From positions 434,001 to 498,000 of the forward strand of contig OU015322.1 of NCBI GenBank assembly GCA_907163225.1: 64,000 bases of DNA. Direction: 5' to 3'. The notes below the pieces were generated by a model. It saw only the letters and a program-made list of their open reading frames with translations, was not told where the DNA came from and searched no databases. The translations under genes and the position numbers were made by a program. The stretch comes from an uncultured Rhodocyclaceae bacterium (GTDB lineage: Bacteria; Pseudomonadota; Gammaproteobacteria; Burkholderiales; Rhodocyclaceae). Of this stretch, positions 19,810-50,386 are shown one piece after another (the first letter of the stretch is position 1; every line of letters starts with the position of its first letter).

Positions 19810-19838
19810 CGCCGATTCCCGAAAGTGCGGTTGGTGGA

Positions 19839-23348: not shown

Positions 23349-23360
23349 GCGGAGCCAATC

Positions 23361-26480: not shown

Positions 26481-26505
26481 TTTTTGCTCAACAAAAGGAA
26501 TTCTC

Positions 26506-26889: not shown

Positions 26890-26925
26890 AGCAACAGCGA
26901 CATAGTGCTTTGTTCGAACCATCCG

Positions 26926-30446: not shown

Positions 30447-30470
30447 GGGGTGACTCTCCGTGGTTCTCGG

Positions 30471-33319: not shown

Positions 33320-33398
33320 GCGACCTCCCTGAAATATTTGTTTTATGGAGCATGCTGACAGCGAGATGGAATCACCCTCTCGCCGCCAGTCGATCTTA

Positions 33399-33743
33399 TT
33401 ATTTGGCTGGTTCGAAATGGACGACGGTGATGGCACCATTCACGGTGTCGGCCATGAAGCGAATCTTATCGCCGGACTTCATTTGGTCCAACCAGGCGGC
33501 ATTGGAAACCTTGAAGACCATGGTCATCGCCGGCATGTTCAGGTTGGTCAGCGGGCCGTGCGACAAGGTCACCTTGCCGGCGGCCTTGTCCACTTTTTTG
33601 ACCTGGCCGTCGACCATTTGCATTTCAGCGGAGGCGGTGGCCGGTGCAGCCATGGCATGGCCGCCATGGTCGCCTGCAGCCTGGACCGAAACGGTGCCAA
33701 GGGAGGCAAAGGCAATCAGGGAGGCGGTGATGAGTGTTTTCAT
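33399..33743 (-). CDS. cusF: CusF-type periplasmic copper/silver chaperone
   Basis: The product has 114 residues: a signal peptide, a His-containing linker GDHGGHAM, and an OB-fold domain VTLSHGPLTNLNMPAMTMVF. It delivers Cu(I)/Ag(I) to the CusB/A pump. The usual Trp that stacks on copper (as in LKWPAMTM) is replaced: the motif here is LNMPAMTM, with a Met instead of Trp. The CusF-like tail fused to CusB still has the Trp. It lies 79 bases before cusC. Confidence 0.92.
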   Translation of the reverse strand: MKTLITASLIAFASLGTVSVQAAGDHGGHAMAAPATASAEMQMVDGQVKKVDKAAGKVTLSHGPLTNLNMPAMTMVFKVSNAAWLDQMKSGDKIRFMADTVNGAITVVHFEPAK

Positions 33744-33761
33744 GGGTTTCTCCTGTTGGGA

Positions 33762-34202
33762 TCAATGTTTTGCAAAAATGCTGGTTTCACCGCCGGACTG
33801 GACCAGCAGCGTGTTGTAGGGAACGGGTTTCGAACTTTCCATGCCTGGCGAACCGGGGGGCATCGAGGGCACCGCGATGCCGAGGGCTTTCGGTTTTTCC
33901 TTGAGCAAGCGCTGGATGCCGGCAACCGGCACATGGCCTTCGACCACATAGCCGGCTACCTTGGCGGTGTGGCAAGAGCCGAGGCGGTCTGGCATTCCCA
34001 ATTGTTTGCGGGCCGCCGGAACGTCCATGACGTTGTGCGAGCGGACCTCAAAGCCCGCATCTTTCAGATGATCGACCCACTTCCCGCAGCAACCACAATT
34101 CGGGCTCTTGTAAACATCCACCATTTCTCCGGCCGCCACCGCAGTGGAAAGGCCTGCGCCGAAGACGGAACTCAAAGCAAGAACAAGAATGGGGTTACGC
34201 AT
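33762..34202 (-). CDS. DUF411 metal-binding protein, second copy
   Basis: The product has 146 residues: a signal peptide, then GEMVDVYKSPNCGCCGKWVD and CHTAKVAGYVVEGHVP. It is clearly related to the protein at 19372-19809 (same CGCC and CHTAK motifs) but not a recent duplicate, since many residues differ. It is the first gene of the cus operon and is preceded by a GATTACATTTTTGTAATT box at 34272-34289. Confidence 0.9.
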   Translation of the reverse strand: MRNPILVLALSSVFGAGLSTAVAAGEMVDVYKSPNCGCCGKWVDHLKDAGFEVRSHNVMDVPAARKQLGMPDRLGSCHTAKVAGYVVEGHVPVAGIQRLLKEKPKALGIAVPSMPPGSPGMESSKPVPYNTLLVQSGGETSIFAKH

Positions 34203-34271
34203 GGCAAATCTCCTGTGTCAGTCGAGTGGCGTCAGTATGGACAGCCGACGCCAACAATTTGCTGTCCGCCT

Positions 34272-34289
34272 GATTACATTTTTGTAATT
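34272..34289. promoter_or_regulatory. CopR/CusR-type box upstream of the cus operon
   Basis: GATTAC-ATTTTT-GTAATT is an imperfect dyad about 70 bases before the ATG of the DUF411-cusF-cusCBA operon. The same dyad in perfect form lies at 38220-38237 next to the response regulator gene. A response regulator of the CusR/CopR type is expected to bind such 6-6-6 dyads. Confidence 0.72.
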
Positions 34290-34297
34290 TTCATGGG

Positions 34298-34960
34298 TTA
34301 ATGTTTGTGAGCTCCGTGGTCATGGCTGTGCGCTTTTTTGCCCTTGGCCGCCGGTTTTTCCTCGACCGGGGCTACTGGTGCCTCTTCGTGGCCTCCATGC
34401 CCCTGCTCGTGGCCTTCCAGTCCGCCATGGGAATGACCGTCACTGGCCGCCACCAGTTGCTCGTAGGCGGTCGCCGACAGCAAAGGCATTTTTTGCAGGA
34501 AGGCCGTCAGGTCCCAAATGGCCTCATCCTCCATGCCGCCCTTCGACCAGGCTGGCATACCGGAAGCCTTGATGCCGTGCTTGATGATCCAGAAATCGCG
34601 GGCAGCGTCACGTGACGATGGCGCAGCCGGTTTGTCGGAAAGATTGGGGGGAGTCGGATACAACCCCTTGCGAATCTCCGAATCTGGCGCTTCCGGAGAC
34701 AGGTGGCAATTGACGCACATTGCCGCATAGTTGCCAGCCCCGCGTCGCACGCGCTCGGGATCGGTAAGATCAGCCGGGATCTGGATTTCACTCGTACGGC
34801 TGGCAATGGCCCTTTCGCGGGCAAACGTCAGCGCCTGGTAGGTGAAGGAACTGTGGGGGGTATCGGCGCCGACATCGACGCCGCCGGCCACGACGACGAT
34901 CCCAGCCGTTGCCGCGCCCAAGCCGATGGTAGCTAGAGCGCCCAAGAGTAGTTTGTTCAT
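34298..34960 (-). CDS. Membrane-anchored cytochrome c with His-rich tail
   Basis: The product has 220 residues: an N-terminal membrane helix (MNKLLLGALATIGLGAATAG), then a haem site CVNCH and a Met ligand region (ASGMPAWSKGG). The C-terminal 60 residues are rich in His (DGHSHGGLEGHEQGHGGHEE, HSHDHGAHKH). The tail could bind copper. The gene is 29 bases after copA and may act as its electron partner or donor; this is inference. Confidence 0.88.
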   Translation of the reverse strand: MNKLLLGALATIGLGAATAGIVVVAGGVDVGADTPHSSFTYQALTFARERAIASRTSEIQIPADLTDPERVRRGAGNYAAMCVNCHLSPEAPDSEIRKGLYPTPPNLSDKPAAPSSRDAARDFWIIKHGIKASGMPAWSKGGMEDEAIWDLTAFLQKMPLLSATAYEQLVAASDGHSHGGLEGHEQGHGGHEEAPVAPVEEKPAAKGKKAHSHDHGAHKH

Positions 34961-34989
34961 GATAAATCTCCTGCGATATGGGTGTGATT

Positions 34990-36399
34990 TCAGTGTTGAC
35001 CGTGGCTGCCAGGCTTCCTGACCACGACCTCCTGGGATTGCGGTTTGCCCGCTGGGCGCATCGCGCCCTTGCCGGCATCGTGGCTGCGGGTTGCGGCCGC
35101 CACCGGTCCGGTCCATTCATAGGCTTGCGTTTTTTTTGGCTGTTTGTACCATCCCGGATCGCGATAGTCGCCTGGTTTCTGGTCGCGACGAACCTTGAGG
35201 ACGGAGAACATGCCCCCCATTTCAACCGCTCCATAAGGGCCTTGGCCGGTCATCATCGGCAGCGTGTTGTCGGGGATGGGCATTTCCATCTCGCCCATGT
35301 CGGCCATCCCGCGTTCCCCCATCACCATGTAGTCGGGTATCAAGTCCGTGATCTGCTTGACGACGCCTCGGTGATCAACGCCAATCATGGTCGGCACGTC
35401 GTGCCCCATGGCGTTCATCGTGTGATGACTTTTGTGGCAATGGAAAGCCCAGTCGCCTTCTTCGTCAGCGAGAAAATCAAGCTGCCGCATCTGGCCGACC
35501 GCCACGTCGGTGGTCACCTCGGGCCAACGCGAGCCGATTGGCGTCGGACCGCCATCAGTGCCACTGACGACAAATTCGTGTCCGTGCAGGTGCATGGGAT
35601 GATTGGTCATGGTCAGATTGCCGATCCGGATGCGGACCTTGTCTCCCTTGCGGACGTTTAGCGAATCGATCCCGGGGAATGACCTGCTATTCCAGGTCCA
35701 GAGGTTGAAATCGAGCATCGTGTTGACCTTGGGCGTGTAGCTGCCGGGGTCGATATCGTAGGCATTCAACAGGAAGCAGAAGTCGCGGTCGACAGTTTCG
35801 ATAAGCGGGTGGCGCTCTTTCGGGTGGGTCACCCAGAATCCCATCATGCCCATCGCCATCTGCGTCATCTCGTCAGCGTGCGGGTGATACATGAAAGTGC
35901 CGGGGCGACGCGCAACGAACTCGTAGACGAAGGTCTTGCCGACCGGAATCTGCTTTTGGTTGAGACCGCCCACGCCATCCATGCCGCTGGGCAGGCGCTG
36001 GCCGTGCCAGTGAATGGTCGTGTGCTCCGGCAGCCGGTTGGTCACAAAGATGCGTACCCGGTCGCCCTCGACTACTTCGATGGTCGGACCGGGGCTTTGT
36101 CCGTTGTAGCCCCACAGGTGAGCCTTCATGCCGGGCGCGATTTCGCGGACAACCGGTTCTGCAACCAAATGAAACTCCTTGATGCCGTTGTTCATGCGCC
36201 AAGGCAGGGTCCATCCGTTAAGGGTGACGACTGGATTGTAGGGACGGCCGTTGGGCGGAGTCAGTGGAGAGGCCGTGTCCGGGTTGTCCTTGGAGACCAG
36301 TTCGGGCAAGGCGGCAAGCGCGACGGAACTGACGGATGCAGCAGCCACGGCTCCGCCGGCCATGCCAAGGTTTCTGAAAAATTCGCGACGTGTGCTCAT
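34990..36399 (-). CDS. copA: Multicopper oxidase, CopA-type copper-resistance protein
   Basis: The product has 469 residues. The N terminus TRREFFRNLGMAGGAVAAAS is a Tat-type signal (twin Arg), consistent with export in folded form. The four copper-ligand motifs are present: TIHWHG, MYHPHADE, HPMHLHGHEF and HCHKSHHTMNAMGH. A Met-rich loop (MGERGMADMGEMEMPIPDN) lies near the active site, as in Cu(I)-oxidising enzymes. It probably converts Cu(I) to the less toxic Cu(II) in the periplasm. It stands 13 bases after the TolC-like gene. The start was taken at the internal Met before STRREF. Confidence 0.94.
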   Translation of the reverse strand: MSTRREFFRNLGMAGGAVAAASVSSVALAALPELVSKDNPDTASPLTPPNGRPYNPVVTLNGWTLPWRMNNGIKEFHLVAEPVVREIAPGMKAHLWGYNGQSPGPTIEVVEGDRVRIFVTNRLPEHTTIHWHGQRLPSGMDGVGGLNQKQIPVGKTFVYEFVARRPGTFMYHPHADEMTQMAMGMMGFWVTHPKERHPLIETVDRDFCFLLNAYDIDPGSYTPKVNTMLDFNLWTWNSRSFPGIDSLNVRKGDKVRIRIGNLTMTNHPMHLHGHEFVVSGTDGGPTPIGSRWPEVTTDVAVGQMRQLDFLADEEGDWAFHCHKSHHTMNAMGHDVPTMIGVDHRGVVKQITDLIPDYMVMGERGMADMGEMEMPIPDNTLPMMTGQGPYGAVEMGGMFSVLKVRRDQKPGDYRDPGWYKQPKKTQAYEWTGPVAAATRSHDAGKGAMRPAGKPQSQEVVVRKPGSHGQH

Positions 36400-36412
36400 G
36401 GTGGATCTCCCC

Positions 36413-37852
36413 TTAATGGTCGGCGCGGCCGGTGGCCGCAATGGTGGCTCGGGCCGATGCGTTCAACGACGGCTTGCCGATCATCGCCATCTCCAGATCG
36501 CCGCGAGCAATCCAGAAATCGCGCAAGGTTTCGATATAGCTGTTAACGCTGCCGATCTGCGTTCGGGCATCCGCGAGCAGATCGAAAACACCAATCAACA
36601 TGCCGTTGTAGCGGAGCATGTTCTCCTCAGAAATCCGCTTGTTAAGGGGAACCACCTCGTCGCGGAAATGACGGGCGATGTCGTAATTTGTCCGGTAGGC
36701 GTGATAAGCCTCACGAACCTCCGAGCGGGCATTGATTGCCGACTCGCCGGCACGCTCCACCGCCTGCATGTAAATCGATTCAGCCTTGGCCACCTTGGAA
36801 CCACCCAAATCGAAAATCGGCAATTCGAAGCTGATTTCGTAGCCCTTCTTGTAGCCGCTGTCGCGTGCGCCTTCGAGCACACGGGCCGGGCCGACTTCGA
36901 GGACGTTGATGAAGCGGGTCGCCTTGGACAGGCCAAGATTCTTCGCCAGCGCCTCGGTTTCGAGGCGAATTGCCTGCAGATCGAGGCGCTGATCGAGCGC
37001 GGCCTGTTCGATACCCGGCAATTCGTCGACCGTCTTGGGCAAATCGGGGAGTCGTTCTGGCAAGCGAATGGCGTTGCGGTCAGGCAGGCCCAGCACGCGA
37101 GCAAGACGTTCGCGTGCCGTGATTGCCGACTGCTCAGACCTGGCCAGGTTCAAGGCCGCGTCGGCATAGAACGCCTGCTCGCGAGTCTGGCGCAGTTTGC
37201 TGAAATTGCCCACCAACGCCATGCGCCGGGCCAGTTCTGCACCGGCCTCTGCGGCCTGCCTGACTTTACGTAGGTAGCGCACGGACTCTTCGGCGGCCAG
37301 CGCCGTGTAATAAGCTTGGCGAGTCTCGGCAGCCAGTCGGGCCACATCGACCACTGCCAGTTGCTGAGCCTGGGCGAATTTGCGTTTCTCCACCTCCACC
37401 GCCAGCGGCATGGTGATCAGGGCAAAGATGTTGAAGGTCAGGGCCTGTTCAATCTTGAACTCCCGGATGCCGTTCTCAGGTTTGCTGGCACGCAACATCG
37501 AAAAATGGGGATTGGGCAAACGCCCGGCCTGCACCAGTTCGGCCTCGCTGATGCCCAGATCGAAAAACGCCGCCTGCAAGCCGCGATTGTTGTAGAGCGC
37601 AAGCTGGATTGCGTCATCCGCCGTTAGCGGCTTGGCGAGCAGTTCGCCGACACGGGTTTGCAATGTCGTGCGTTCCGCATCGCTGCGCGCCCATTTGACG
37701 TCCTTGTCCAAACGCTCGAGGGTCGTTTGCTCGACACGGCCGAATCCGCCATCGTCCGAAAACGTGGCACAACCGGCCAAACCGAGAATGCCGATGGTGG
37801 CGACAAGAAGTTTTCCGCGACGCATCGGCAAAAAAGAGCGAGTAGAGGTCAT
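36413..37852 (-). CDS. TolC-family outer membrane lipoprotein of the copper operon
   Basis: The product has 479 residues. The lipobox LAGC at about 25-28 makes it a lipoprotein. The rest is a TolC-like coiled-coil barrel (GRLPNPHFSMLRASKPENGI, RVLGLPDRNAIRLPERLPDL). It sits between a small periplasmic gene and copA, so it may be the channel of a second copper pathway rather than of cusCBA, which has its own cusC. The start overlaps the upstream stop. Confidence 0.88.
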   Translation of the reverse strand: MTSTRSFLPMRRGKLLVATIGILGLAGCATFSDDGGFGRVEQTTLERLDKDVKWARSDAERTTLQTRVGELLAKPLTADDAIQLALYNNRGLQAAFFDLGISEAELVQAGRLPNPHFSMLRASKPENGIREFKIEQALTFNIFALITMPLAVEVEKRKFAQAQQLAVVDVARLAAETRQAYYTALAAEESVRYLRKVRQAAEAGAELARRMALVGNFSKLRQTREQAFYADAALNLARSEQSAITARERLARVLGLPDRNAIRLPERLPDLPKTVDELPGIEQAALDQRLDLQAIRLETEALAKNLGLSKATRFINVLEVGPARVLEGARDSGYKKGYEISFELPIFDLGGSKVAKAESIYMQAVERAGESAINARSEVREAYHAYRTNYDIARHFRDEVVPLNKRISEENMLRYNGMLIGVFDLLADARTQIGSVNSYIETLRDFWIARGDLEMAMIGKPSLNASARATIAATGRADH

Positions 37853-38133
37853 GGTTTGTCTCCGCTCGCCTGTGGAGTGCGTTCAGCGGGTTTTCCGTGC
37901 TCATGGGTTGGCTGTCCAGCCGCTTGGCCGGTTTCAAGATGTCCCATGTGTCCGCGCAGGCGCCCCATCTCGTCATTGACCTGACTCCAGTCATACAGCG
38001 TCTCATCCTTGAACGGTTTGTAATCCGCGAAAGCCGATTGGTAGGATGTTTCGGGTATCGCTTCCTTGGGCGGATGGGAATCGGCCCAGGCGGGTGTCGC
38101 GGCGAGCGCGATCGTTAACGCCATGATTTTCAT
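37849..38133 (-). CDS. Small exported protein, first gene of the copA operon
   Basis: The product has 94 residues with a short signal peptide (ending WADSHPPKEA) and a hydrophilic mature part including WSQVNDEMGRLRGHMGHLE and a His/Pro tail. The family is unknown, but such a protein is a common partner in front of TolC/copA in copper clusters. The divergent cusR gene begins 171 bases away with a shared CusR-type box between them. Confidence 0.75.
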   Translation of the reverse strand: MKIMALTIALAATPAWADSHPPKEAIPETSYQSAFADYKPFKDETLYDWSQVNDEMGRLRGHMGHLETGQAAGQPTHEHGKPAERTPQASGDKP

Positions 38134-38219
38134 GATGCCTCCATTGGGAATATGCGGAGTCTTTTGCTCCGATGATCGACATCATGCTTTCGCCAAACCA
38201 ACATCTTGCTGACTTGCGG

Positions 38220-38237
38220 ATTACATTTCCGTAATCT
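38220..38237. promoter_or_regulatory. CopR/CusR-type box between the copA operon and cusR
   Basis: GATTAC-ATTTCC-GTAATC is a perfect 6-6-6 dyad in the divergent promoter region, 87 bases from the minus-strand gene start and 67 bases from the cusR start. Its position allows control of both units, including autoregulation of the two-component system. Confidence 0.8.
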
Positions 38238-38303
38238 AGGCATTTGGCCTTTAAAAGCGACGGAAAATGCGCCATCAATAGCCAATGGTTGGCGGAGAGA
38301 GCG

Positions 38304-38981
38304 ATGAAAATTCTTGTAGTGGAAGACGAAACCAAAACCGGCACCTACCTCAAGCAGGGCTTGGTCGAGGCAGGCTTCGTCGTGGATTTGGCCGTCAACG
38401 GCCTCGACGGGCTGCATTTGGCGCTGACAGAGGCCTATGATCTGGCGATCCTCGACGTCATGCTCCCGGGTATCGACGGCTGGCAGGTGTTGCAAGGCAT
38501 TCGCCGGGCCGGCAAGGAAATGCCGGTGCTGTTTCTGACGGCACGCGACCAGGTGGAAGATCGGGTTAAAGGATTTGAACTGGGAGCAGATGATTATCTG
38601 GTCAAGCCCTTTGCGTTTTCTGAACTGTTGGCTCGCGTCAGATCTCTTTTGCGTCGTGGCGGAAAAGCCAAGGAATCCGAGATTCTGCGCGCAGCCGACC
38701 TCGAACTCGACTTGCTGCGCCGCCGCGTCAATCGGGCCGGGAAACGGATTGACCTGACCGCCAAGGAGTTTGCCTTGCTCGAACTGTTGCTGCGCCGTCA
38801 GGGTGAGGTGTTGCCACGCTCATTGATAGCCTCTCAGGTCTGGGACATGAATTTCGACAGCGACACGAACGTCATCGAGGTCGCGATCAAGCGCCTGCGG
38901 GTCAAGATTGACGACGGGTTCGAACCCAAGTTGATTCGTACGGTGCGTGGCATGGGCTATGTTCTGGAGATTACCGATTGA
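38304..38981 (+). CDS. cusR: CusR/CopR-type response regulator
   Basis: The product has 225 residues of the OmpR family. The receiver domain begins [20 protein letters not shown]; the phospho-acceptor Asp is in [10 protein letters not shown] and the switch Lys in DYLVKPFAF. The C-terminal winged helix ends with [14 protein letters not shown] and VRGMGYVLE. The start is the Met before KILVVED. The sensor gene overlaps the stop. It likely binds the GATTAC dyads found here and senses copper or silver. Confidence 0.93.
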
Positions 38982-40381
38982 CCCCGACTCGCGGCCCTTC
39001 ACTGACGCTTCGCCTGACCCTGCTGTTTGCGCTGGCCTCGGCCTTTGTGCTGTTCCTGCTCGGCCTGCTGATTGGCAATGCGGTTGAGCGCCACTTCGAA
39101 GAGCAGGATTTGGATGTGCTGACCGGCAAAATGCAGTTGGCGAGGCATATCCTGGAACGAAAACCAGATAGTCAGCCGAAAGAGACGCTGACCCAGCAAT
39201 TGGACGATGCGTTAACGGGGCATCACGGGCTGATCGTTGCTGTCTATGACCAGAATGGCAAAACGCTGTATGCCAACGAATCCATGGTCTTTCCGCAGGA
39301 TCTACTAAGCATTGGCGCGACACCAAAGCGCGAGCAGCCCGTCAAATGGAGCAGTAACGACGACCAGCCATGGCGGGGGATTTCCTCGATGGTCAAGTTT
39401 GGCACCGATGGCGGCGGTAGTTACACCGTGGCAATTGCCACCGAAATTACCCATCACGAACACTTCATGACTTCCTTCCGGCAGACCTTGTGGGGGTTCA
39501 TGAGCTTGGCAACCCTGGCGATGGGATTGCTCGGCTGGTTTGTCGTCCGGAGCGGCCTGTTGCCTTTACTGGCCATTAAGCGGCAGGCGGCCGAGATCAC
39601 CGCCAATCGCCTGCATACCCGCTTGCCGGTCGAAGCCATCCCCCGCGAATTGGCGGATCTGGCTGACACACTGAATGGCATGCTTTCGCGCTTGGAAGAA
39701 TCCTTTCAGCGCCTGTCGGATTTTTCATCGGACTTGGCCCATGAGTTGCGAACGCCGGTCAGCAATCTGTTGACCCAGACCCAGGTCACGCTCTCGAAAG
39801 CACGCTCGGCGGACGACTATAGGGACATCCTGGCGTCGAATGCGGAAGAGTTCGAGCGCCTGTCGCGTACCATTTCCGACATGCTCTTTCTGGCCAAGGC
39901 CGACAACAACCAAATCATCCCGAACCAGGAGCCGATCAATCTCGCCGAGGAAATCGGCGATTTGCTGGAATATTACGACGTGCTTGCCGAAGAGAAGTCG
40001 GTTGCCTTGTCACTCTCTGGTGACGGCCAAATCGTCGGAGACCGATTGATGCTGCGCCGTGCAGTCAGCAATCTGCTCTCAAATGCACTGCGGCACACGC
40101 CGAACGAGGGCAAAGTTACCGTTCGAGTCGAAAAAAACAGTGAAGGCAGGATTCTAGTCTCCGTCGAGAACACAGGGAGCGACATCCCGGCCGAACATTT
40201 ACCTCGTCTGTTCGATCGTTTCTACCGTGTCGACAGTTCGCGCCTGCGCACGACAGAAAATTCAGGCTTAGGGCTCGCAATAACCCAATCTATTGTGTTC
40301 GCTCACGGCGGGGATATGGGTGTCAATTCGGAAGACGGAAAAACACGCTTCACACTCTCTTTACCCTGTATCCATCAGTAG
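38978..40381 (+). CDS. cusS: CusS/CopS-type membrane sensor histidine kinase
   Basis: The product has 467 residues. Two membrane helices (about 10-30 and 162-185) enclose a periplasmic sensor region with [25 protein letters not shown] domain follows, then the dimerisation helix with the phospho-His in [12 protein letters not shown], and an ATP-binding domain with SNALRHTP and ENSGLGLAI. The start is TTG, overlapping the cusR stop by four bases (TTGA). It should sense periplasmic copper or silver. Confidence 0.92.
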
Positions 40382-40404
40382 TCTTTGGATACTCTGAAAA
40401 GACG

Positions 40405-41688
40405 ATGATGAGCCAGGTCGATCTCTACCTCGATGCTGCCGAGCGGACCAACACCCGGCGCAGCTATGCCTCGGCCATCCGCCATTTTGAGATCGAGTGG
40501 CACGGTCTGCTACCGGCAACGATCGATTCGATCGCTCGGTATCTGGCCGAACACGCCGAATCCTTATCCCTGAACACGCTCAAGCATCGCCTGGCCGCAT
40601 TGTCGCGCTGGCACCAGGAGCACGGTTTCCCCGACCCGACCAAGGCCGCCAAGATCCGCCAAGTTCTTAAAGGCATCCGGGCGCTGCATCCGGCCCAGGA
40701 GAAGCGCGCCAAGCCGTTGGAACTGGACATCCTGCAACAGACCAGTGACTGGCTGGTGCAGGCGACGGCCGGCGCCGTTGTCCGGGGCGATGCCGGCAGC
40801 GCGCTACGACATACCCGAGACCGCGCCCTTGCACTGCTGGGGTTCTGGCGGGGATTCCGATCCGATGAATTGGCCAGTCTGTGCATCGAGTTCATCGAGA
40901 TCAAGCCTGGCGAGGGCATGACTTGCTATCTCCCGCGGAGCAAAGGAGATCGCCAACTGGAAGGGCGAAAGTTCTCCTGCCCGGCACTCTCCCGCCTGTG
41001 CCCCGTGGAGGCAGTCGAGGATTGGCTGGCCTTGTCCAAACTCAAGGATGGTCCGCTCTTTCGCAAAATTGACCGCTGGGGTCATCTCTCAGAAACCGGC
41101 CTTCTCCCCGGAAGCATCATTCCCATGCTTCGCCAGTTCCTTGCGCAAGCGGGAATCGCCGATGCCGAAGCGTTCAGCAGCCACTCCCTACGCCGGGGAT
41201 TTGCCCAGTGGGCAGGTTCGAGCGGGTGGGATATCCGGGAGTTGATGACCTACGTCGGCTGGCGCGACATTAAAGCCGCAATGCGCTATTTGGACGGGAT
41301 TGATGTTGGTCTCAAGGCGCGCTTCGAGCAGGGTTTGGATCGTGCTTTGCCGGAGCCGGCAAAGCAGACGCCGCAACTGCCGGCCATTCCGGAAGTGGCA
41401 CAGACGATCATCGAGGTATCGATCCAGCTATCTTCGTTCAACGGCAGCAGCCGGAAAGAAGCCAGTGCGTTACGCGACATGCTGGATACCGGTCTCGCCC
41501 GTTTTCAGGCGCAGCAAGTTGACAGCGATCACGGCCTATATCAGCTATCCATCCCGACACCATCGGCCGATATCCTGGACGATCATCTATACGCTTTGCT
41601 GGATGAACTCCACCGCATTGCCGATGCCAAGGAATGTTTTCTGGAGGCAGTTTGCCGCGATCCATCAAGCGGCAAGCATTGGGATTGA
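40405..41688 (+). CDS. Tyrosine recombinase of the Tn3-family transposon (TnpI/TnpS-like)
   Basis: The product has 427 residues. The catalytic residues of the tyrosine recombinase family can be placed at R152 (GFRSDEL), H260-x2-R263 (SSHSLRRGF) and Y295 (AMRYLDG). The N-terminal part is a SAM-like core-binding domain; about 100 residues after the Tyr form a family-specific tail. It directly precedes tnpA (9 bases) and would resolve cointegrates formed by replicative transposition, in place of a serine resolvase. Tn4651 TnpS and Tn4430 TnpI are analogues. Confidence 0.88.
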   Translation: MMSQVDLYLDAAERTNTRRSYASAIRHFEIEWHGLLPATIDSIARYLAEHAESLSLNTLKHRLAALSRWHQEHGFPDPTKAAKIRQVLKGIRALHPAQEKRAKPLELDILQQTSDWLVQATAGAVVRGDAGSALRHTRDRALALLGFWRGFRSDELASLCIEFIEIKPGEGMTCYLPRSKGDRQLEGRKFSCPALSRLCPVEAVEDWLALSKLKDGPLFRKIDRWGHLSETGLLPGSIIPMLRQFLAQAGIADAEAFSSHSLRRGFAQWAGSSGWDIRELMTYVGWRDIKAAMRYLDGIDVGLKARFEQGLDRALPEPAKQTPQLPAIPEVAQTIIEVSIQLSSFNGSSRKEASALRDMLDTGLARFQAQQVDSDHGLYQLSIPTPSADILDDHLYALLDELHRIADAKECFLEAVCRDPSSGKHWD

Positions 41689-41697
41689 TCCAGTAGC

Positions 41698-44694
41698 ATG
41701 ACCCAACTTCACGAGACCGCGTATCCCCGCTTGAATGCGGACCCTTCCGCGCAGGATCTTGAAGAGGTCTACACCCTGACGCCGGATGAAATTGCCTTCA
41801 TCGACCAGATCGTCAAACGACCAACGGCACGCACGGTGGCTTTTCTCTACCTGAAGCTTTTTCAGCGACTGGGCTACTTCATCCGTATCAAGGATGTGCC
41901 GACCGTCATCCGGCAGCACATTGTGGCCCAAACGGGATTTGCACGCCCCCCGAGGCTCGACGAGTTGTTGCAGTTCGACCGCTCAACCGGCCGCGAGCGG
42001 ATGGTCGAATCGTTACGCCGCTTCCTGGATGTCCGCCCGCTAAATCCGGAGGGTCGTGCCTGGCTCCAGCACATTGCCGAGACGGCCGCCGACAATCGCC
42101 ACGTTGTGGCCGATATTATCAACGTGATGCTGGAGGAACTGGTCCATCACCGCTATGAGTTGCCCGGCTTCACGGTTTTGGATCGATTGGCGATCCAGGC
42201 CCGCGAAAAGATTCACGAGGTGCATTTCGCGGGTATCGCCAACCAACTCGATACCAAGGTCAAGGAACGGATCGACACCCTGTTCAAGGTCAGTAAGGAT
42301 GAAGCTGTTACGACTTGGAACATGCTCAAGCGGGAACCGAAAAAGCCCACCAACAAGGAAACCCGCTCCTACCTCCAACATATCCGGCGCTTGCAATTGC
42401 TGGTTGAGCAATTGCCCCAACCAGACATTCCCGTCCCCAAACTCAAGCAGTATCGCTATATCGCTCGCTCCCTGAATGCCAGCGAAATGGCGGAACTGAA
42501 ACCGCAGAAGCGTTACGCGCTGGCGGTCATTTATATCCGCGCGCAGTTTGCGCAGACCCTCGACGATGCAGCCGATCTGTTCGTCCGCATGCTCCAGAAC
42601 CTGGACAATCAGGCACGTACCAAGTTGGGTGAGTACCAGCAAGAACACTTGCAGCGAACAGATCGTCTGATCGGGCAGTTGAAGGAGGTGTTGCTGGCAT
42701 ATCAGATCAACGGAACCGACCATCAGCGCGTGGAGGCCATCGGCTCCAGTCTGATCGCCGACGTCGATGACTTGGTGGCCATCTGCGACGAACACATGGC
42801 CTATGCCGGTCGCAATTACCTGCCGTTCCTCATCCAACCCTACAAGGCAGTGCGCGCCCAATTACTCAACTGCATCGAAATCATCAATCCGCAGAGCAGC
42901 AGCGAGGACGATACCTTGATCCGGATGATGAAGGCGTTGCAGGCACTGCGCAGTACGCGGCACGAGATCGTGCCGATTTCGCTAGTCGAACTGGAACCAG
43001 AGCGCGATCTCCAGTGGTTGCCCGCCGCCTGGCGAAAACTGGTTGTTACTGAACGTTCCGACGGACGAGTCGCCACCATCAATCGCCGCTACTTTGAATT
43101 GGCAGTCATGTACGCCATCCGCGACGAATTGAAATCAGGCGACCTTTTCATCCAACATGGTGAGCGCTACGACGATTATCGCGAACAGTTGGTTGACGAT
43201 GAAACCCTGAATCGTGAACTGGCCGACTATGGCCAGGTAACGGGCGTTGAAACCGATCCCAAGACCTTTACCCAGGCATTGAAATCCGTCTTGCTGGAAA
43301 CAGCCGAAGCCGTTGATGCCGAGTTCCCGGAAAATGCCTACGCCGAGATTGTCGATGGTCGGTTGATCCTGAAAAAACCACCGGCGAGCGAATTGCCGCC
43401 CGGCATCCGCCAGATTGATCATCTGATTACCGAGCACATGGAGAACGTCAGCATTGTCGATGTGCTAATCGATACCGAGCGCTGGCTGCAAATGCATAAG
43501 CTGTTCCGACCCATGATGGGAACCGAAAGCCGGATCGAGGAATTGCGCCCACGGGTGATCAGCACCTTGTTCTGTTACGGCTGCAACCTCGGTCCGACCC
43601 AGACGGCGCGGTCGATTCGCGGAATGAGCCGCAAACAAGTTGCCTGGCTCAATATCAAATACATGACCGAAGAGTCGCTGGAACAAGCCATCGTCAAGGT
43701 GATCAATGCCTACAACAAGTTCGAATTGCCCGGATACTGGGGTTCGGGAAAACATGCCTCAGCCGATGGCACGAAATGGAATCTCTACGAGCAGAACCTG
43801 ATTTCCGAGCACCACATTCGCTATGGTGGCTATGGCGGCATCGGTTATTACCACGTTTCCGACAAGTTTATCGCCTTGTTCAGTCACTTCATTTCCTGCG
43901 GCACTTACGAAGGGACGCACATCCTCGACGGACTGATGTCCAATACCTCGGATATCCGACCGGACACCATCCATGGCGATACGCAGGCCCAGAGCTATAC
44001 GGTCTTCGCTTTGTCGCATCTGCTTGGAATCAAGCTGATGCCCCGGATACGGGGCATCAAGGATCTGGTGTTCCATCGCCCGGATAGTGACAAGAAATTT
44101 GCACACATCGAGGGCCTATTCACGGACGTTATCAACTGGCAAATGATCGAAACCCATTTGCCGGACATGCTGCGCGTGGCTATTTCCATCAAGCTCGGAA
44201 AAATCTCAGCATCCGCCATCCTGCGCCGCCTGGGCACCTACAGCCGCAAGAACAAACTGTATTTCGCCTTTAAGGAATTGGGCAAGGTCATCCGAACCAT
44301 GTTCTTGCTGAAATACGTCGGTAGCGTCGAACTACGCCGACTCATCCATGCCGAAACCAACAAGTCGGAGCAGTTCAATGGCTTCGCCAAGAAAATATTC
44401 TTTGGCGGAGAAGGGGAGATCGCCGAGAACCTACGCCATGAACAACGCAAGGTGATTAAGTACAACCATCTCGTCGCCAACATGGTCATCCTGCACAACG
44501 TGGTGGGAATGAGCCGGGTGTTGAAGCAACTACAGGCCGAGGGCGTGCTAGTCAATCAGGAAATACTGGCTGGGTTGGCACCATACCGCCTAGAACACAT
44601 CAATCGCTTTGGCGACTATGTTCTGGATTTCCGGCGGAAGGTTGAGGTGTTGGCGGATGGTTTTCGGATTCTCGACAACAAATCAGATGTTTAA
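41698..44694 (+). CDS. tnpA: Tn3-family transposase TnpA
   Basis: The product has 998 residues, the normal length for the family. It catalyses replicative transposition at the 33-bp ends. The DDE triad can be placed at D690 (SADGTKWN), D761 (TIHGDTQAQ) and E891 (NKSEQFNGF). The N-terminal half contains the DNA-binding and scaffold domains. It ends 8 bases before the right inverted repeat. It is intact, so the transposon may still be active. Confidence 0.96.
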   Translation: MTQLHETAYPRLNADPSAQDLEEVYTLTPDEIAFIDQIVKRPTARTVAFLYLKLFQRLGYFIRIKDVPTVIRQHIVAQTGFARPPRLDELLQFDRSTGRERMVESLRRFLDVRPLNPEGRAWLQHIAETAADNRHVVADIINVMLEELVHHRYELPGFTVLDRLAIQAREKIHEVHFAGIANQLDTKVKERIDTLFKVSKDEAVTTWNMLKREPKKPTNKETRSYLQHIRRLQLLVEQLPQPDIPVPKLKQYRYIARSLNASEMAELKPQKRYALAVIYIRAQFAQTLDDAADLFVRMLQNLDNQARTKLGEYQQEHLQRTDRLIGQLKEVLLAYQINGTDHQRVEAIGSSLIADVDDLVAICDEHMAYAGRNYLPFLIQPYKAVRAQLLNCIEIINPQSSSEDDTLIRMMKALQALRSTRHEIVPISLVELEPERDLQWLPAAWRKLVVTERSDGRVATINRRYFELAVMYAIRDELKSGDLFIQHGERYDDYREQLVDDETLNRELADYGQVTGVETDPKTFTQALKSVLLETAEAVDAEFPENAYAEIVDGRLILKKPPASELPPGIRQIDHLITEHMENVSIVDVLIDTERWLQMHKLFRPMMGTESRIEELRPRVISTLFCYGCNLGPTQTARSIRGMSRKQVAWLNIKYMTEESLEQAIVKVINAYNKFELPGYWGSGKHASADGTKWNLYEQNLISEHHIRYGGYGGIGYYHVSDKFIALFSHFISCGTYEGTHILDGLMSNTSDIRPDTIHGDTQAQSYTVFALSHLLGIKLMPRIRGIKDLVFHRPDSDKKFAHIEGLFTDVINWQMIETHLPDMLRVAISIKLGKISASAILRRLGTYSRKNKLYFAFKELGKVIRTMFLLKYVGSVELRRLIHAETNKSEQFNGFAKKIFFGGEGEIAENLRHEQRKVIKYNHLVANMVILHNVVGMSRVLKQLQAEGVLVNQEILAGLAPYRLEHINRFGDYVLDFRRKVEVLADGFRILDNKSDV

Positions 44695-44702
44695 AGCAGA
44701 AA

Positions 44703-44735
44703 CGGGGAATTTTTCATGATTCCCGGCCGACCCTC
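44703..44735 (-). repeat. Right terminal inverted repeat (IRR)
   Basis: On the minus strand it starts GAGGGTCGGCCGGGAATCAT and ends AATTCCCCG. It differs from the left end at one base (C for A at position 10). Transcription of the interrupted phage gene reads into it and adds 14 foreign codons before a stop. Confidence 0.95.
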
Positions 44736-45066: not shown

Positions 45067-45483
45067 TCAGCCCCACTTTGCCAAGCAAAAATTAGCCTCT
45101 TCGATCATTGCGGCCTGTTTTTCCGGGTTTTTCTGTTTCGCGGCCAAGGCCACCACGCGACCGGCAACGCCTTCGAGATTGGCCCTTTTCTTGGCCTTCC
45201 ACGCCGCCGCCGCTATCGGATTGATCGAATCCACGATCTCCCTTTCGCGCCGCCCGCGCACGGCCATTGACTCGCACCACCGCGCCGCCGTTGTCTCACT
45301 CAGGAAGGAATAGACCTTGCCGGCAGGGCCTATCAATACCCTATCCCCAACGACCAGCCCCGACGGCCCCAAGTGCCACGCAGCGCCATCCGTGAGCAAG
45401 GCTTGTGCCATAACCGGGCAAATGAAGCCCTGCGCCGATTGTTTTACAAATGCCGATGAAAAAGCGGATGAAAACGCGCTCAT
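45067..45483 (-). CDS. 138-residue protein of the prophage element, unknown function
   Basis: The start is the ATG that overlaps the stop of the fibre gene (TAATG). The N terminus has a repeated SAFSSAFSSAF. The middle has a small strand-rich section (GPSGLVVGDRVLIGPAGKVY) and the end is helical (AWKAKKRANLEGVAGRVVAL). No known family was recognised. Its place between the fibre and the 340-residue protein suggests a structural or assembly role. Confidence 0.68.
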   Translation of the reverse strand: MSAFSSAFSSAFVKQSAQGFICPVMAQALLTDGAAWHLGPSGLVVGDRVLIGPAGKVYSFLSETTAARWCESMAVRGRREREIVDSINPIAAAAWKAKKRANLEGVAGRVVALAAKQKNPEKQAAMIEEANFCLAKWG

Positions 45484-46472
45484 TACTCGACTTCCCACAC
45501 AATTTTGAAGATAGCACCGACTATCGCTTGGCCAGCCGTAATGCTCATGGCCTGCATGTTTCCAGAACTGAACACCCCGCCGCTTTGAGGTGAAAACGAC
45601 GTAAACGGTTCCCCCCCCGAAAAGCTCGCGGCACTCCTTACCGACAACTTACCTGCCTGCCCCGCTCCGACATTCACCGTTATCGACGACGCGACCGATA
45701 CATTGCACTTCATCTCAAGCCAATACCGCCTCACACGTCCAACGACCTCACACCCTGACGCATTTAACGAGAAATTCGCCGGGACGACAGGAATCCACAC
45801 TTCATTAGTCGCACCGCCGCCAGCCATACCCTGCCATTCCGTCCAACTATTTCCTTCATTGACTTCGAAATTTCCCATCCGACACAACGGCACGGCACCG
45901 CCAATATACGGAGAATACGGCGCATAAATCTGAAGAGTACCACCGCCCCCGTGGTAGCTTTTAATCGTTAAAACAGACCCATAATGACCCGGATACCCGT
46001 TTTGATACGCAAAATCCAACGTCACACCCAATGGATAATCCAACGGAAGTACGCCCCCACCCCTGACCTCAGATGTAGGCGACAGCAAAGGCGCACTGGT
46101 CACCGGCCCGGCCACGCCCGGCACACCTTGCGGCCCTACGTCTCCTCTATCCCCTTTGGCCCCCTGCACGCCTTGCGGCCCGGCCACGCCATCGGCCCCG
46201 GCATCGCCCTTGTCACCTTTCAGCCCTTGCGGCCCTGCCACACCCTGCGCACCGGCGACACCCTGCGCACCGCCGGCCCCGGCCGGCCCTACGTCGCCCC
46301 TATCCCCTTTGGCCCCCGGAACGCCCTGCGGCCCGGCTGGCCCGGTCAATAGCGCAATATCTTCCGGCTCAAGTTCGACGAAGTGACTCAGCGCTGCAAC
46401 GTGTGACGGCTGGATTACCCCGGCCTCCCCTGTATCGACCCATTCGACTGGCTTGATGTGACTTACTATCAT
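45483..46472 (-). CDS. Collagen-like fibre/spike protein
   Basis: The product has 329 residues in three parts. Residues 1-42 form a short base. Residues about 43-125 are an uninterrupted run of Gly-x-y triplets rich in Pro, Lys and Asp (GPAGPQGVPGAKGDRGDVGP), which form a collagen-like triple helix. Residues 126-329 are a beta-rich, Gly/Ser/Ala-containing tip. This base-shaft-tip build is that of trimeric receptor-binding fibres; the spike protein P5 of phage PRD1 also has a collagen-like shaft. No signal peptide or C-terminal anchor is present, which argues against an inovirus pIII. It overlaps the neighbours at both ends. Confidence 0.82.
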   Translation of the reverse strand: MIVSHIKPVEWVDTGEAGVIQPSHVAALSHFVELEPEDIALLTGPAGPQGVPGAKGDRGDVGPAGAGGAQGVAGAQGVAGPQGLKGDKGDAGADGVAGPQGVQGAKGDRGDVGPQGVPGVAGPVTSAPLLSPTSEVRGGGVLPLDYPLGVTLDFAYQNGYPGHYGSVLTIKSYHGGGGTLQIYAPYSPYIGGAVPLCRMGNFEVNEGNSWTEWQGMAGGGATNEVWIPVVPANFSLNASGCEVVGRVRRYWLEMKCNVSVASSITVNVGAGQAGKLSVRSAASFSGGEPFTSFSPQSGGVFSSGNMQAMSITAGQAIVGAIFKIVWEVE

Positions 46473-46694: not shown

Positions 46695-46901
46695 TCAACA
46701 GGCGTCATCATCAAACCTTCGACACATCCTGATTTTTTCAATCTGCGCCCCAAATTTTTCGATTTCCTTTTGCTGGCGGACAATATCGCGCAACATTGCT
46801 TTTTGCTCTGCGCGAATGCCACCGTAAATAGCACCCGCGCAAAGCAACATGCCGACCAGCTGCAAAGCTAACCCGGCATCACCGCCATTAGGCATTTGCA
46901 A
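46695..46901 (-). CDS. 68-residue membrane/coiled-coil protein of the prophage element
   Basis: One hydrophobic helix (about 10-28) is followed by a charged helix (EQKAMLRDIVRQQKEIEKFG) that looks like a coiled coil, and two Cys near the end. The frame overlaps the upstream 177-residue gene. Small one-helix proteins of this type can be virion or lysis-accessory proteins. No family was recognised. Confidence 0.65.
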   Translation of the reverse strand: MQMPNGGDAGLALQLVGMLLCAGAIYGGIRAEQKAMLRDIVRQQKEIEKFGAQIEKIRMCRRFDDDAC

Positions 46902-47421
46902 TAACGGTCAGGCGTGCGACTTCGGTATCAATCGCCGCAACGTCAGTTACCACAGCGGCGCGCTGGGCTTGCACTTCCAGCTTTTTGGCTTGCTGCGCCG
47001 CATTGCCGACTTCCCAGCCAACCATGAGCGTCAAATCAGCGTCGATTTCGGCGATGATCGCGTTTTGCGAAACCTTGGCCTTTGCCAGTCGGACGATCTG
47101 AGACTCAGCGAACGCTTTCATGTCATTCGGAACCTTGCTGGCCAGCACCGCGCCCGTGTCGACTTCGACGGTATAGACGCCGTTGCCCTTTTCGGCGACC
47201 TTGGCCGCGAACTTGAGCGCATCGTCGACATTCGAGAAGGTTTTGATCTTGCCGGCATCGGTGGCGAGTTCGTAGGTATTGCCGTCGATAGTCATCTTTC
47301 CCACAAATTTCAAGGCCGAAGAAGTACCGACAACGGTGAGCAGGATGGCGGCAACAGCGCCCGGAGTGCCGACTTTCCAAGCACCGAAGAGGCGGGAAAG
47401 TTCGCGTTGAGTTTTACGCAT
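46888..47421 (-). CDS. 177-residue secreted or membrane protein of the prophage element
   Basis: A basic N terminus and a hydrophobic helix (about 17-40: GTPGAVAAILLTVVGTSSAL) lead into a beta-strand section (MTIDGNTYELATDAGK, YTVEVDTGAVLASK) and a long helix at the end rich in Ala. It is the first gene after the replication gene, 98 bases away, where a promoter may lie. It may be a major virion membrane protein; no homologue was recognised. It overlaps the next gene by 14 bases. Confidence 0.68.
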   Translation of the reverse strand: MRKTQRELSRLFGAWKVGTPGAVAAILLTVVGTSSALKFVGKMTIDGNTYELATDAGKIKTFSNVDDALKFAAKVAEKGNGVYTVEVDTGAVLASKVPNDMKAFAESQIVRLAKAKVSQNAIIAEIDADLTLMVGWEVGNAAQQAKKLEVQAQRAAVVTDVAAIDTEVARLTVIANA

Positions 47422-47519: not shown

Positions 47520-49340
47520 TCAGGCTATCGCCGCCATTGGTGGCGACTCGAAAATTGCCGCCGCCATCCCGGAAAACTCTGCTTCAATCCTTGAAATACT
47601 TCGCTTTATTGCTTCGTACCGGCCAACTCCCGGATCATCGCCGGTACAGTTATTGACACAAGACCGAGTAGAGTCAAAAACAACCCCGCCCGATTTTTTT
47701 GCCAGCCCGCCCCAATGAATCACCCAATCGCGCACGGCCAACATCAAACGCGCCCCGCCCTGACAAACGCCCGTCACCACAGGCGCGGCAACATCCCCGT
47801 ATTCCGTCAGACGCGCCCCAACCGACTTCATCAAGGCCAGCCCGCCCGCCTTGCACGCCAGCCAGAACTCGCACCAATCCGAATCATCCGCCGCCCGCGT
47901 TGCCCGTGCCAACGCGCCATTAACCGGCAAGCCCCCGGCCTCCAACCTGCGCAGCGTTCGCCAGATTCCGACAGACGGCATACCGAAAAATTGAAACTGA
48001 CGAATCGACCAATGCGACGCCCACGCATCAACTCGCTTAACCGTTGATGATATATATCCCCCGGTCTCCAAATCCCGCTCTTTTTCCATGCCGCCGCCGT
48101 CAATATTTTTACTGACATAAGCCGCCGCGTAATGCGCCGCGCCTGTCCCTGATTCTGCAATTTTGAAATTGAATCTGTGCTGAATTGCCCCCATCTCGTC
48201 GCCAGAATCAAGCAAGGCATACCACCTAGCGATATGGCGGGCGAAGCACAAATCTTGCGGGGGACCATAGACAATCAAGTGCCAATGCGGACATCCATCA
48301 TGATGCGGCTCTGCGGTGCGAAGCCCTGCCACCACTAGCCCACGGCGTTTCAGCGCCGCCCGAATCCGCGCCCAAACGCTGCACAAATAACGCTGAGCAT
48401 CGGCTGGCGAAAGCGGGTTTCTTGTCTCTTTTCCGAAGGAGTCAAGCACCGGCTTTCCCTCGTCATTTACTACCAGCTCACCAAAATTCGGATTTGGTTC
48501 GGCGCAGTATCCCGTTATCTTCTGCGCATGAAATCGGCTTGGGGCGGTAATTGTCCAAAACTCACAAGCCCAGCCCTGAAGATGCGCGTATCCATCACAC
48601 CCTCGAATCCTCACCATCAATTCCGCCCGCTTGTTTTCCGGGTTCGCAAGGCTTCCTGCTACGATCTCCGACATCTCTACCGTTTCGCCATCCGCCGCAA
48701 TCGCCACCGCCCTTTCCATCGCCGCAGCGTTTCGCTTGCGCTGATCCTGACGACGTATCACGGCATCCTGCGACGCGTAAGGCCACAGACCACGCCTGAC
48801 TACGCCGCCTTCAATCGCTGCGCCCTCTGCCCGCCGCCCGTGAGACCGCCGCAATCGGCGCAAATACCACCGCCCGTCGAGCATCCGCAGCATTCCCGGT
48901 ATGCCCTCTTGTTTTGCCGCCTCTATCCCCCAAGACTCACAATGCGCCTCAAGCACCGCCCGCACCTCGTCATTGCTTGCCCCGGCCCCTATTTCCGCCC
49001 TTGCGAAGTCCTGCGCCGTCTTCGCGGCCTCTTCTGCCGCCTCTCGAATCGCCCAATCCGTCGCAGCTAGCGGCAATCGCCCGCCCGCCTTGGCCGTCAC
49101 GTCCAGCAACCACGCGTTTGCAACACGCGACCCCAGCCCGCCGCGCCTCCCATGCTCCGCCGTCACATGCTGACGCCACACGAACGGCATCAATGCCACC
49201 TTTTTCCGCAGCCAAATCCGGCCGGCCTCTTCTTCCTTGGCCACAACCCCCCTCAACAACGCATCAATCCGCCGCGTACCCTCTTCTGACGGATCAACAT
49301 ACTTGTGCGGCTCACCCAGCAAAAACCGCGCTTCGCTCAT
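47520..49340 (-). CDS. HUH rolling-circle replication initiator (phage gpA superfamily)
   Basis: The product has 606 residues. Three motifs of superfamily I rolling-circle initiators are visible: motif 1 FWTITAPSRFH (about 261-271), motif 2 with the HUH pair PHWHLIVYG (H352, H354), and motif 3 YAAAYVSKN with two Tyr (Y404, Y408) and the Lys. This is the set found in P2 gpA, phiX174 A and PM2 P12. It nicks the origin and starts replication of a circular genome. The start is at the second Met, which overlaps the upstream stop (ATGA). It is the strongest phage marker in the element. Confidence 0.9.
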   Translation of the reverse strand: MSEARFLLGEPHKYVDPSEEGTRRIDALLRGVVAKEEEAGRIWLRKKVALMPFVWRQHVTAEHGRRGGLGSRVANAWLLDVTAKAGGRLPLAATDWAIREAAEEAAKTAQDFARAEIGAGASNDEVRAVLEAHCESWGIEAAKQEGIPGMLRMLDGRWYLRRLRRSHGRRAEGAAIEGGVVRRGLWPYASQDAVIRRQDQRKRNAAAMERAVAIAADGETVEMSEIVAGSLANPENKRAELMVRIRGCDGYAHLQGWACEFWTITAPSRFHAQKITGYCAEPNPNFGELVVNDEGKPVLDSFGKETRNPLSPADAQRYLCSVWARIRAALKRRGLVVAGLRTAEPHHDGCPHWHLIVYGPPQDLCFARHIARWYALLDSGDEMGAIQHRFNFKIAESGTGAAHYAAAYVSKNIDGGGMEKERDLETGGYISSTVKRVDAWASHWSIRQFQFFGMPSVGIWRTLRRLEAGGLPVNGALARATRAADDSDWCEFWLACKAGGLALMKSVGARLTEYGDVAAPVVTGVCQGGARLMLAVRDWVIHWGGLAKKSGGVVFDSTRSCVNNCTGDDPGVGRYEAIKRSISRIEAEFSGMAAAIFESPPMAAIA

Positions 49341-49588
49341 TTCAGCCGCGCCGCCCACGCCTCAAACCTTTTCAATCCTGCCACCACATCGCCGCGCACA
49401 TCAGCCGGCAAACTGCACCACTCCCCCCGGCCATAAAATGCAGCTTCAGACGCCGTTTTTCTGGCCATCGCCAGCAACAGCCGTCGATCGGACGGCGAAG
49501 CTATTTCATCCCACACCGCCCGGAACTTGTCGCGCTCTCCGCCAATAATCGCCCTACACTCCGCAAGACGAACCACCTCGGCCGTCAC
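49337..49588 (-). CDS. Small protein upstream of the replication initiator
   Basis: The product has about 83 residues. A GTG overlapping the upstream stop (GTGA) is the probable start; another GTG three codons earlier is possible. It is helical and charged (EVVRLAECRAIIGGERDKFR). Overlap with the initiator gene by four bases indicates coupling. The function is unknown; it may help replication or bind single strands. Confidence 0.6.
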   Translation of the reverse strand: MTAEVVRLAECRAIIGGERDKFRAVWDEIASPSDRRLLLAMARKTASEAAFYGRGEWCSLPADVRGDVVAGLKRFEAWAARLK

Positions 49589-49953
49589 GCTAACCACCCA
49601 TCCCTATAAACCTCACCCCTCGCCGCGCACACCCCGCCCGCGCCTGTCACATATTTTCTCGTCGCCCCGGAAGGAATCCTACAAGTGGCATCTATCAACT
49701 CCCCGGGCGAAACACAAAACCCCTCCCGAAAATCAACCGGGTAATCTCGCCCACCAAGGAAAACAACTTTTCCGCTTTCAAAATCACGCCACACAGGCAA
49801 CGCCGCCGGCTCTGTCACCAGATAGCCCGCGAAGTCCTCAGCCAACCGCCGCCGAAATCCGGCCTTTGCTACCCCACGACAAACCACCCGCACCAAATCA
49901 CAGGCGACCGCATGCCCACGCGCCCGGCGTGAATACTTTGTGATTGCAAACAT
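49585..49953 (-). CDS. 122-residue early protein of the prophage element
   Basis: This is the first leftward gene of the element. It is rich in Arg and Val, with a basic N terminus (YSRRARGHAVACDLVRVVCR) and a strand-rich centre (VVFLGGRDYPVDFREGFCVS). Small basic proteins at this place in ssDNA phages often bind DNA, but no family was recognised. The 154 bases up to the divergent HTH gene must hold both promoters; a short dyad GGCC...GGCC at 50001-50015 is visible there. Confidence 0.62.
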   Translation of the reverse strand: MFAITKYSRRARGHAVACDLVRVVCRGVAKAGFRRRLAEDFAGYLVTEPAALPVWRDFESGKVVFLGGRDYPVDFREGFCVSPGELIDATCRIPSGATRKYVTGAGGVCAARGEVYRDGWLA

Positions 49954-50107
49954 GGATTCAGCCCCTGATCACGGGCATAGAAAATACTGATTGGCCTTTG
50001 TACGGCCTTCCGTCGCAGCATTGCCAAATGAGAGCCACTAGCAACTGACAACCATCTGGTGACTGAGCATAAACAACCAACCGAAGCCGCGCACGGGATA
50101 CAACGCC

Positions 50108-50386
50108 ATGAACGACGCCACTATTGCCGCCCTGATTCACCGATTCCGCAGCGCCGCGCAATGCGCCGCCGCCCTTGGCATTTCCCGCCAAGCCTTCAGA
50201 GCGGCCATGCAACGCGGCCAACTCTCCAACGCCGTCGCCTTGCGCGCCGCCGCCATTCTTGCCCAAAACCCCACCGCGCCAATACTCGACGCCGCCCCTG
50301 ACCTTCCCAAACAGCTTTACATAACAACCCGCCGGAATAACAATTATGCGCTTAACGAGAGCATAAAAAACGGCCTACGCCGTTAA
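50108..50386 (+). CDS. Helix-turn-helix regulator, truncated by integration at dif
   Basis: The N-terminal 60 residues have a helix-turn-helix of the Cro/YdaS sort (AQCAAALGISRQAFRAAMQR) in a protein divergent from the early genes, the normal place for a lysogeny repressor. The last 10 codons (after YAL) are supplied by the chromosome past the dif core and end at TAA. In the excised circle the gene would go on for 127 more codons (6897-7280) and give 209 residues. Integration therefore changes the regulator's C terminus. The ATG is 154 bases from the opposing gene. Confidence 0.75.
   Translation: MNDATIAALIHRFRSAAQCAAALGISRQAFRAAMQRGQLSNAVALRAAAILAQNPTAPILDAAPDLPKQLYITTRRNNNYALNESIKNGLRR
50327..50354. 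other. attR: partial dif (XerC arm and centre only)
   Basis: The bases are ACCCGCCGGAA - TAACAA - TTATGCGCTTA. The centre and XerC-type arm match the left dif, while the XerD arm has been replaced by element sequence. Beyond the core about 35 further bases also match between the two ends (ACGAGAGCATAAAAAA, hairpin AACGGC...GCCGTT), so the element carries a copy of the host's dif flank. The implied attP has only one good arm, as in several dif-using phages. Confidence 0.85.

Follow-up and report, generated by a model that had tools for sequence, protein, structure and literature searches.

What becomes of a regulatory gene when the phage that carries it places its own attachment site within the reading frame? 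The window, as we call the whole stretch of 64,000 nucleotides analysed here from an uncultured Rhodocyclaceae bacterium, contains two copies of the att core AATAACAATTATGCGCTT, at 6879 and 50336 (Table 1), and a helix-turn-helix (HTH) gene whose frame, starting at 50108, crosses the second of them. The first-pass annotation had proposed that this frame runs into the dif core and stays open when the ends of the element are joined. This was confirmed: with the right end fused to the left end, an identical, unbroken frame of 209 residues resulted at all four core offsets tested, and the C-half frame (6879-7280) is open up to a stop. The further proposal that integration exchanges a long form of the protein for a short one also holds, with attP lying inside a regulator-like gene, the arrangement kept in relatives, and full-length copies occurring naturally. 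Neither in the window nor in Dechloromonas denitrificans does an ATG, GTG or TTG codon stand ahead of the conserved domain of the C half, and in the window this domain is therefore readable solely as the 3' portion of the joined gene. Across six elements, two C-half frames lack a start codon before the domain; some are present in the other four.

The origin of the short form's end required correction. As had been claimed, the 92-residue form closes on a stop supplied by the flank, but its tail, previously called chromosomal, is 11 residues long and imperfectly repeats the phage sequence past the core (flank 50345-50390; ALNESIKN versus ALHESIKK). Among the 30 dif sites listed for the genus, a similar flank is found only at the phage-bearing site of D. 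denitrificans (L049) and perhaps at one other (L057). Judged from its sequence, the flank beyond attR is probably the scar of an earlier phage integration rather than ordinary chromosome.

Table 1. Features of the integrated element and its attachment sites, in window positions.
Feature	Position	Strand	Remarks
dif, left end (attL)	6870..6897	+	sole site in the window genome within one mismatch of the searched dif pattern
C half of long form	6879..7280	+	conserved domain, predicted helical, then tail with RLAA end; domain not preceded by a start codon
Phage ORF	7668..8483	-	homologues in relatives
Tn3-family transposon inside phage	9300..44735		38-bp terminal inverted repeats, 33/38 matching; TACAC 5-bp duplication at 9295-9299 and 44736-44740
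Collagen-like protein	45483..46472	-	
177-aa protein	46888..47421	-	no clear family match; homologues from six other elements align at 39-68% identity to window
Rolling-circle replication protein	47520..49358	-	Phage_GPA, E 1e-58
Small conserved phage ORF	49337..49597	-	86 aa
Phage ORF divergent from HTH gene	49585..49953	-	homologues in relatives
Operator-like palindrome GACAAC-N5-GGTGAC	50047..50063	.	2 mismatches to GTCAAC-N5-GTTGAC; divergent intergenic region
HTH gene, prophage form	50108..50386	+	92 aa: 81 residues through core and 11-aa flank-supplied tail
att core, right end (attR), AATAACAATTATGCGCTT	50336..50353	+	XerD-side arm degenerate

The two cores imply a circle of 43,457 bp. 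A 43-kb phage was nevertheless rejected in favor of a phage of about 8 kb with a 35.4-kb Tn3-type copper transposon inside it. Once the transposon and a single copy of the duplication are subtracted, the phage measures 8,016 bp, close to the 7,931-bp spacing (start positions subtracted) of the two long-form genes on the viral contig described below. The transposon cargo comprises two RND pumps, outer-membrane efflux proteins, a multicopper oxidase, a CusS-like sensor, and pieces of a P-type ATPase. A KfrA-like gene also lies in the transposon, beside the copper/metal resistance genes, and a KfrA-like protein 73% identical to it occurs in the D. denitrificans copy (L025), together with metal-efflux-looking ORFs adjoining the phage half of that copy.

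Within the phage itself, the HTH gene and the Rep block are divergently oriented, and the 177-aa protein is a candidate structural protein; the related phage on the viral contig L029 additionally encodes a lysozyme and an HU-like protein. Neither an integrase nor a Zot/pI-like assembly ATPase was found among the window and L029 proteins scanned (some small ORFs fell outside the scan), and the P2-type coat protein that, with a packaging ATPase, would mark a Corticoviridae-like phage was not found among 10 L029 proteins or the window proteins scanned. A dif-like attP, the host dif as integration site, and no integrase found are the features of an Xer-exploiting phage. The dif pattern (at most one mismatch) occurs in 57 of 76 genus genomes, once per genome except for two sites in G017, and all four genus prophages have a dif match at the end of the C half. 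The dif site of the window genome shares its center, TAACAA, with the phage core; most of the genus dif sites listed have TACAAA.

Both halves of the gene recur together, and the named relatives are D. denitrificans ATCC BAA-841 and an Azonexus metagenome-assembled genome. Counting the window's own genome, the C half was matched in 7/100 relatives, 8/395 family genomes, and 5/399 order genomes. At E 0.1 the N half matched 15 of the 76 genus genomes; only four of these matches fall below 1e-6 (G000, G059, G043, G011), and all four genomes also have the C half; in the family it was found in 4/395 genomes (G000, G059, G011, G119), again with the C half in all four. Ten further genomes, mostly picked for a C-domain match, gave one convincing N half (G119, E 2.6e-6) and one at E 0.04 (G084), with none in the other eight. 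A match in G057 (E 8.7e-4) was dropped because the frame showed no resemblance by eye. A tblastn search of 50,697 phage records with the window's N and C halves returned nothing at E 1. In viral contigs, the C-half profile A1 had no match and profile A3 matched two loci, one on the L029 contig and one, L106, left out for a C half identical to that of G119.

In all five prophages with both halves (window, G059, G043, G011, G119), the two share a single reading frame at the core. The N half runs into it as NNNYA in the window, NTNYA in G059, G043 and G119, and QYLYYVK in G011; the C half continues from it as NNNYA, NTNYA (G059, G043), ANYA, and NLYYVK, respectively. In G059 the two halves lie on separate contigs, and in G011 the gene traverses dif in the reverse orientation, still in frame. 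The chance of five such agreements is about 0.004, with the open frames not yet counted in; this test omits G412, whose N half was lost in an assembly gap, and G004, which begins inside the C half. Like the window's short form, the prophage forms of G059 (117 residues), G043 (153), and G011 (117) are each shorter than the joined form. That of G119, at 224 residues, is not below its joined form (about 221, by arithmetic), and its attL has no match to the dif consensus; together with an absent palindrome (see below), these features count against a switch.

The first-pass annotation had suggested looking for free relatives with an HTH gene reading across attP, and such a relative exists. The IMG/VR contig L029 (IMGVR_UViG_3300025896_003560) carries two unbroken 230-residue copies, 7.9 kb apart, that read across attP, are of equal length without gaps, and share 83% DNA identity. 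This contig holds two related, distinct phages in tandem (L029 1-11341 and L083), each with an intact attP-spanning gene. That the joined frame is merely a chance open frame or an assembly artefact is hardly credible, since independent genomes and the viral contig agree, and the natural full-length copies refute it.

A model of the natural long form, which the earlier annotation had also recommended, predicts two domains on a loose joint: a Cro-like HTH bundle (residues 1-62), disorder (63-125), helices (130-208, pLDDT about 92), and a disordered tail. The loose joining of the domains keeps the mean pLDDT at 69.9 and the pTM at 0.39. In the PDB, the whole AlphaFold model comes closest to Cro and XRE repressors, with Xfaso 1 Cro at the head (probability 0.99, TM 0.66 to target, E 0.64), and the viral structure matches include several phage immunity repressors at E 0.12 or more; all Foldseek E-values among the matches listed exceed 0.1, which weighs against the switch. 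By sequence, the N half resembles HTH families weakly (Pfam below cut-off; best PHROG E 0.0023). The core codons, at about residues 101-105, lie within the disordered linker.

This placement is what would be expected if a short dif-type site had simply happened into the tolerant linker of a regulator, with truncation of little effect. We consider such a passive by-product improbable, however, as the frame has persisted in five prophages and in both natural long copies, through either dif orientation, and the domain that integration removes is under purifying selection. Between the L029 copies, dN/dS is 0.29 over the whole gene, 0.45 in the N half, 0.64 around the core, and 0.17 in the C half, with differences distributed 32/23/63 over the codon positions. 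Between the window and D. denitrificans, the N half has dN about equal to dS, a point against the switch. The removed part, a conserved domain of about 80 residues, is far larger than a tag and so probably has a function of its own.

The ends of these genes also argue against a passive by-product, being enriched for Ala-Ala. Seven of nine C halves end in this way (RLAA in the window, G059, and G043; KKAA in G119; SEAA in G412; TKAA and AIAA in L029), although the shared descent of these ends means that the count overstates their independence (perhaps four lineages) and that the binomial figure is too small. The background is 8 of 368 mechanically called ORFs of at least 90 residues in 400 kb of the window genome. 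None of the five prophage forms ends in Ala-Ala, nor does any of the six more distant C-domain frames (G212, G236, G084, G311, G623, G606). The G084 frame, which ends AARF, stays open across the dif of that element in the window's phase and so may be one of the fused genes; counting it, Ala-Ala stands at 7/10. Two C halves, G004 (KKAM) and G011 (KSAK), lack the ending and speak against the switch. The ssrA-like end is confined to the viral form, the pattern tested for immunity of the BPs type.

Upstream of the HTH gene, GTCAAC-N5-GTTGAC occurs with at most two mismatches in six of seven copies: none in G043, G011, and the first L029 copy, one in G059 and the second L029 copy, and two in the window. 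The G119 upstream region has no palindrome within three mismatches. The palindrome was picked after inspection of the sequences, which counts against the switch; its window copy was equalled in 6 of 2000 shuffles. Elsewhere in the scanned phage segments there is a single other site (G011, two mismatches), and the transposon stretch has two sites at one or two mismatches in 35.8 kb.

Considering the attP position, the frame, the natural long forms, selection on the C half, the domain prediction, the Ala-Ala ends, and the palindrome, we think it probable that the locus is an integration-dependent lysogeny switch operated by host XerCD; repressor function, proteolysis, XerCD dependence, and the short form as the active one are what we infer. 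In the proposed mechanism, the circular phage would make a two-domain regulator consisting of a Cro-like HTH, a flexible linker encoded by the attP DNA, a helical C domain, and an Ala-Ala tail that may mark it for ClpXP-type proteolysis. Repression of the divergent replication operon would be weak, and the phage would replicate. Once XerCD recombine attP with dif, the gene would be severed in the linker, and the prophage would make the DNA-binding half alone, ended by a host stop and devoid of C domain and tag. This stable short form would repress the operon via the palindrome, and excision would restore the long form. If true, host recombinases would throw the lysis-or-lysogeny switch of a small Azonexus/Dechloromonas phage, tying lysogeny to chromosome dimer resolution and explaining how integrase-less phages control the reversible Xer reaction.

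Alternatively, the long protein could be a self-limiting integration factor that aids XerCD in recombining attP with dif, the C domain acting as an Xer activator that the HTH places at attP; integration would cut the gene, switch the activator off, and lock the prophage in. We regard this as rather unlikely. It would leave the Ala-Ala ends and the palindrome unexplained, and excision would need to proceed without the long form. Moreover, the C half has no Pfam match, the C domain alone has no PDB fold match (best probability 0.13), and DUF3653, which we take to be the family of the Xer activator XafT, was rejected as its family with matches in 0/40 genus genomes. The C half is matched by PHROG 10187, of unknown function; the match in G623 (E 1.6e-10) is better than the weak one in the window (E 0.0043).

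Three kinds of evidence favor an integration factor nonetheless: selection is stronger on the C half than on the N half; the Xanthomonas phage XacF1, when deprived of the 5' part of ORF12, is reported to show delayed integration and an unstable prophage (PMC5666396); and the C domain recurs beside a dif-like site in five of six more distant elements, the exception being G311. Of 20 arm positions, 18-20 are matched in G084, G623, and G606, and 15 in G212 and G236, a level also reached by chance (e.g., L026:787). In G623 the HTH and C-domain genes even flank the core as two genes, the former stopping 26 bp before it and the latter starting about 150 bp after it, and the fused state is thus a property of the window's phage group and not of all dif phages. 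Phrog_4441 and phrog_638 match both the G623 HTH (strongly) and the L029 long form (weakly), which fits two neighboring genes having become fused. The two ideas might also be combined, in that a repressor may have been fused to a dif-linked recombination factor with attP at the joint; one Xer crossover would then remove the degradation tag (immunity on) and destroy the integration factor (excision off). We hold this fused version to be unlikely. If it were true, phage commitment would be a by-product of host XerCD activity at the terminus.

Returning to the switch operated by XerCD, its closest functional parallel is mycobacteriophage BPs, a tailed actinobacterial phage, unlike the small rolling-circle type of Betaproteobacteria considered here, in which a whole conserved domain is lost along with the tag. 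According to the published reports, the BPs repressor gp33 is shortened from 136 to 103 residues on integration, attP lies within the repressor gene, and the prophage form is closed by a host stop (PMC4557955); likewise, the long form bears an ssrA-like Ala-Ala tag and the divergent control region has a palindromic operator (PMC4557955, PMC9934374). BPs encodes an integrase (PMC4557955), whereas none was found for the window phage, which uses the host dif. For Mycobacterium abscessus prophages, the marks of integration-dependent immunity are given as a core in the repressor gene, a host stop, and an '-AA' tag (PMC9934374). From sequence, all three are present in the window's phage group, with host dif sites replacing the integrase. 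By analogy, this is probably integration-dependent immunity as in BPs, but through host XerCD.

Other integrase-less phages share parts of this arrangement. Jorvik, a membrane-containing phage of Rhodobacter capsulatus, is described as having no integrase, a dif-like attP/attB, and an attP adjoining the HTH gene gp1, which is thought to act in the lysis-lysogeny decision; unlike in the window phage, attP lies outside gp1 past a non-coding stretch, resembling the two-gene layout of G623 (PMC10589892). The corticovirus-like elements in G212 (with a P2-type coat protein) and G623 (with a related packaging ATPase and Rep) have, as the window phage does, a Phage_GPA-type Rep and a C-domain relative beside the site, but no HTH fused across attP was found in either, the C domain being a separate gene. 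These elements, L078 (G212; another genus of the same family) and L081 (G623; another family of the same order), stand beside dif-like sites, and their C-domain gene (PHROG 10187) stands alone. Enterogokushovirus EC6098 is similarly small, lacks an integrase, and uses XerC/XerD at dif, but it is a microvirus, and the dif motifs surveyed with it are reported as mostly non-coding or at gene ends (PMC7062461). PhiRs551 was rejected as a precedent, its published description indicating that it uses its own resolvase, and the NO16 vibriophage literature consulted gave no case of attP inside a regulator.

The suggestion that no described dif-using phage has this arrangement, by contrast, did not survive comparison with Xanthomonas inoviruses. 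In XacF1 and Cf1c, according to the reports, dif-site integration is XerC/D-dependent in XacF1, and attP lies inside an ORF, a possible regulator (ORF12/Cf1cp8), that is split on integration (PMC4076744, PMC5666396). XacF1 ORF12 is reported to affect prophage stability, and its deletion phenotype is consistent with a role in keeping the prophage (PMC5666396). On these accounts XacF1 is the nearest precedent, with the same kind of site and the same kind of gene, and the switch offers a testable account of ORF12. Unlike the window phage, XacF1 and Cf1c are of the Inovirus type with a Zot-like protein, and Cf1cp8 has only about 30 residues from the core to its end, RTGQ, without Ala-Ala. No paper was found joining 'integration-dependent immunity' with 'XerC', weak evidence of absence as most subscription papers lay outside the search, and in a further literature search on the combination the 2017 XacF1 paper was the single match. 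As far as the literature searched shows, the combination of a BPs-type repressor split with host Xer/dif is new. How integration switches a repressor has been established for phages that encode an integrase of their own, and the same logic seems to have arisen here with a borrowed host system.
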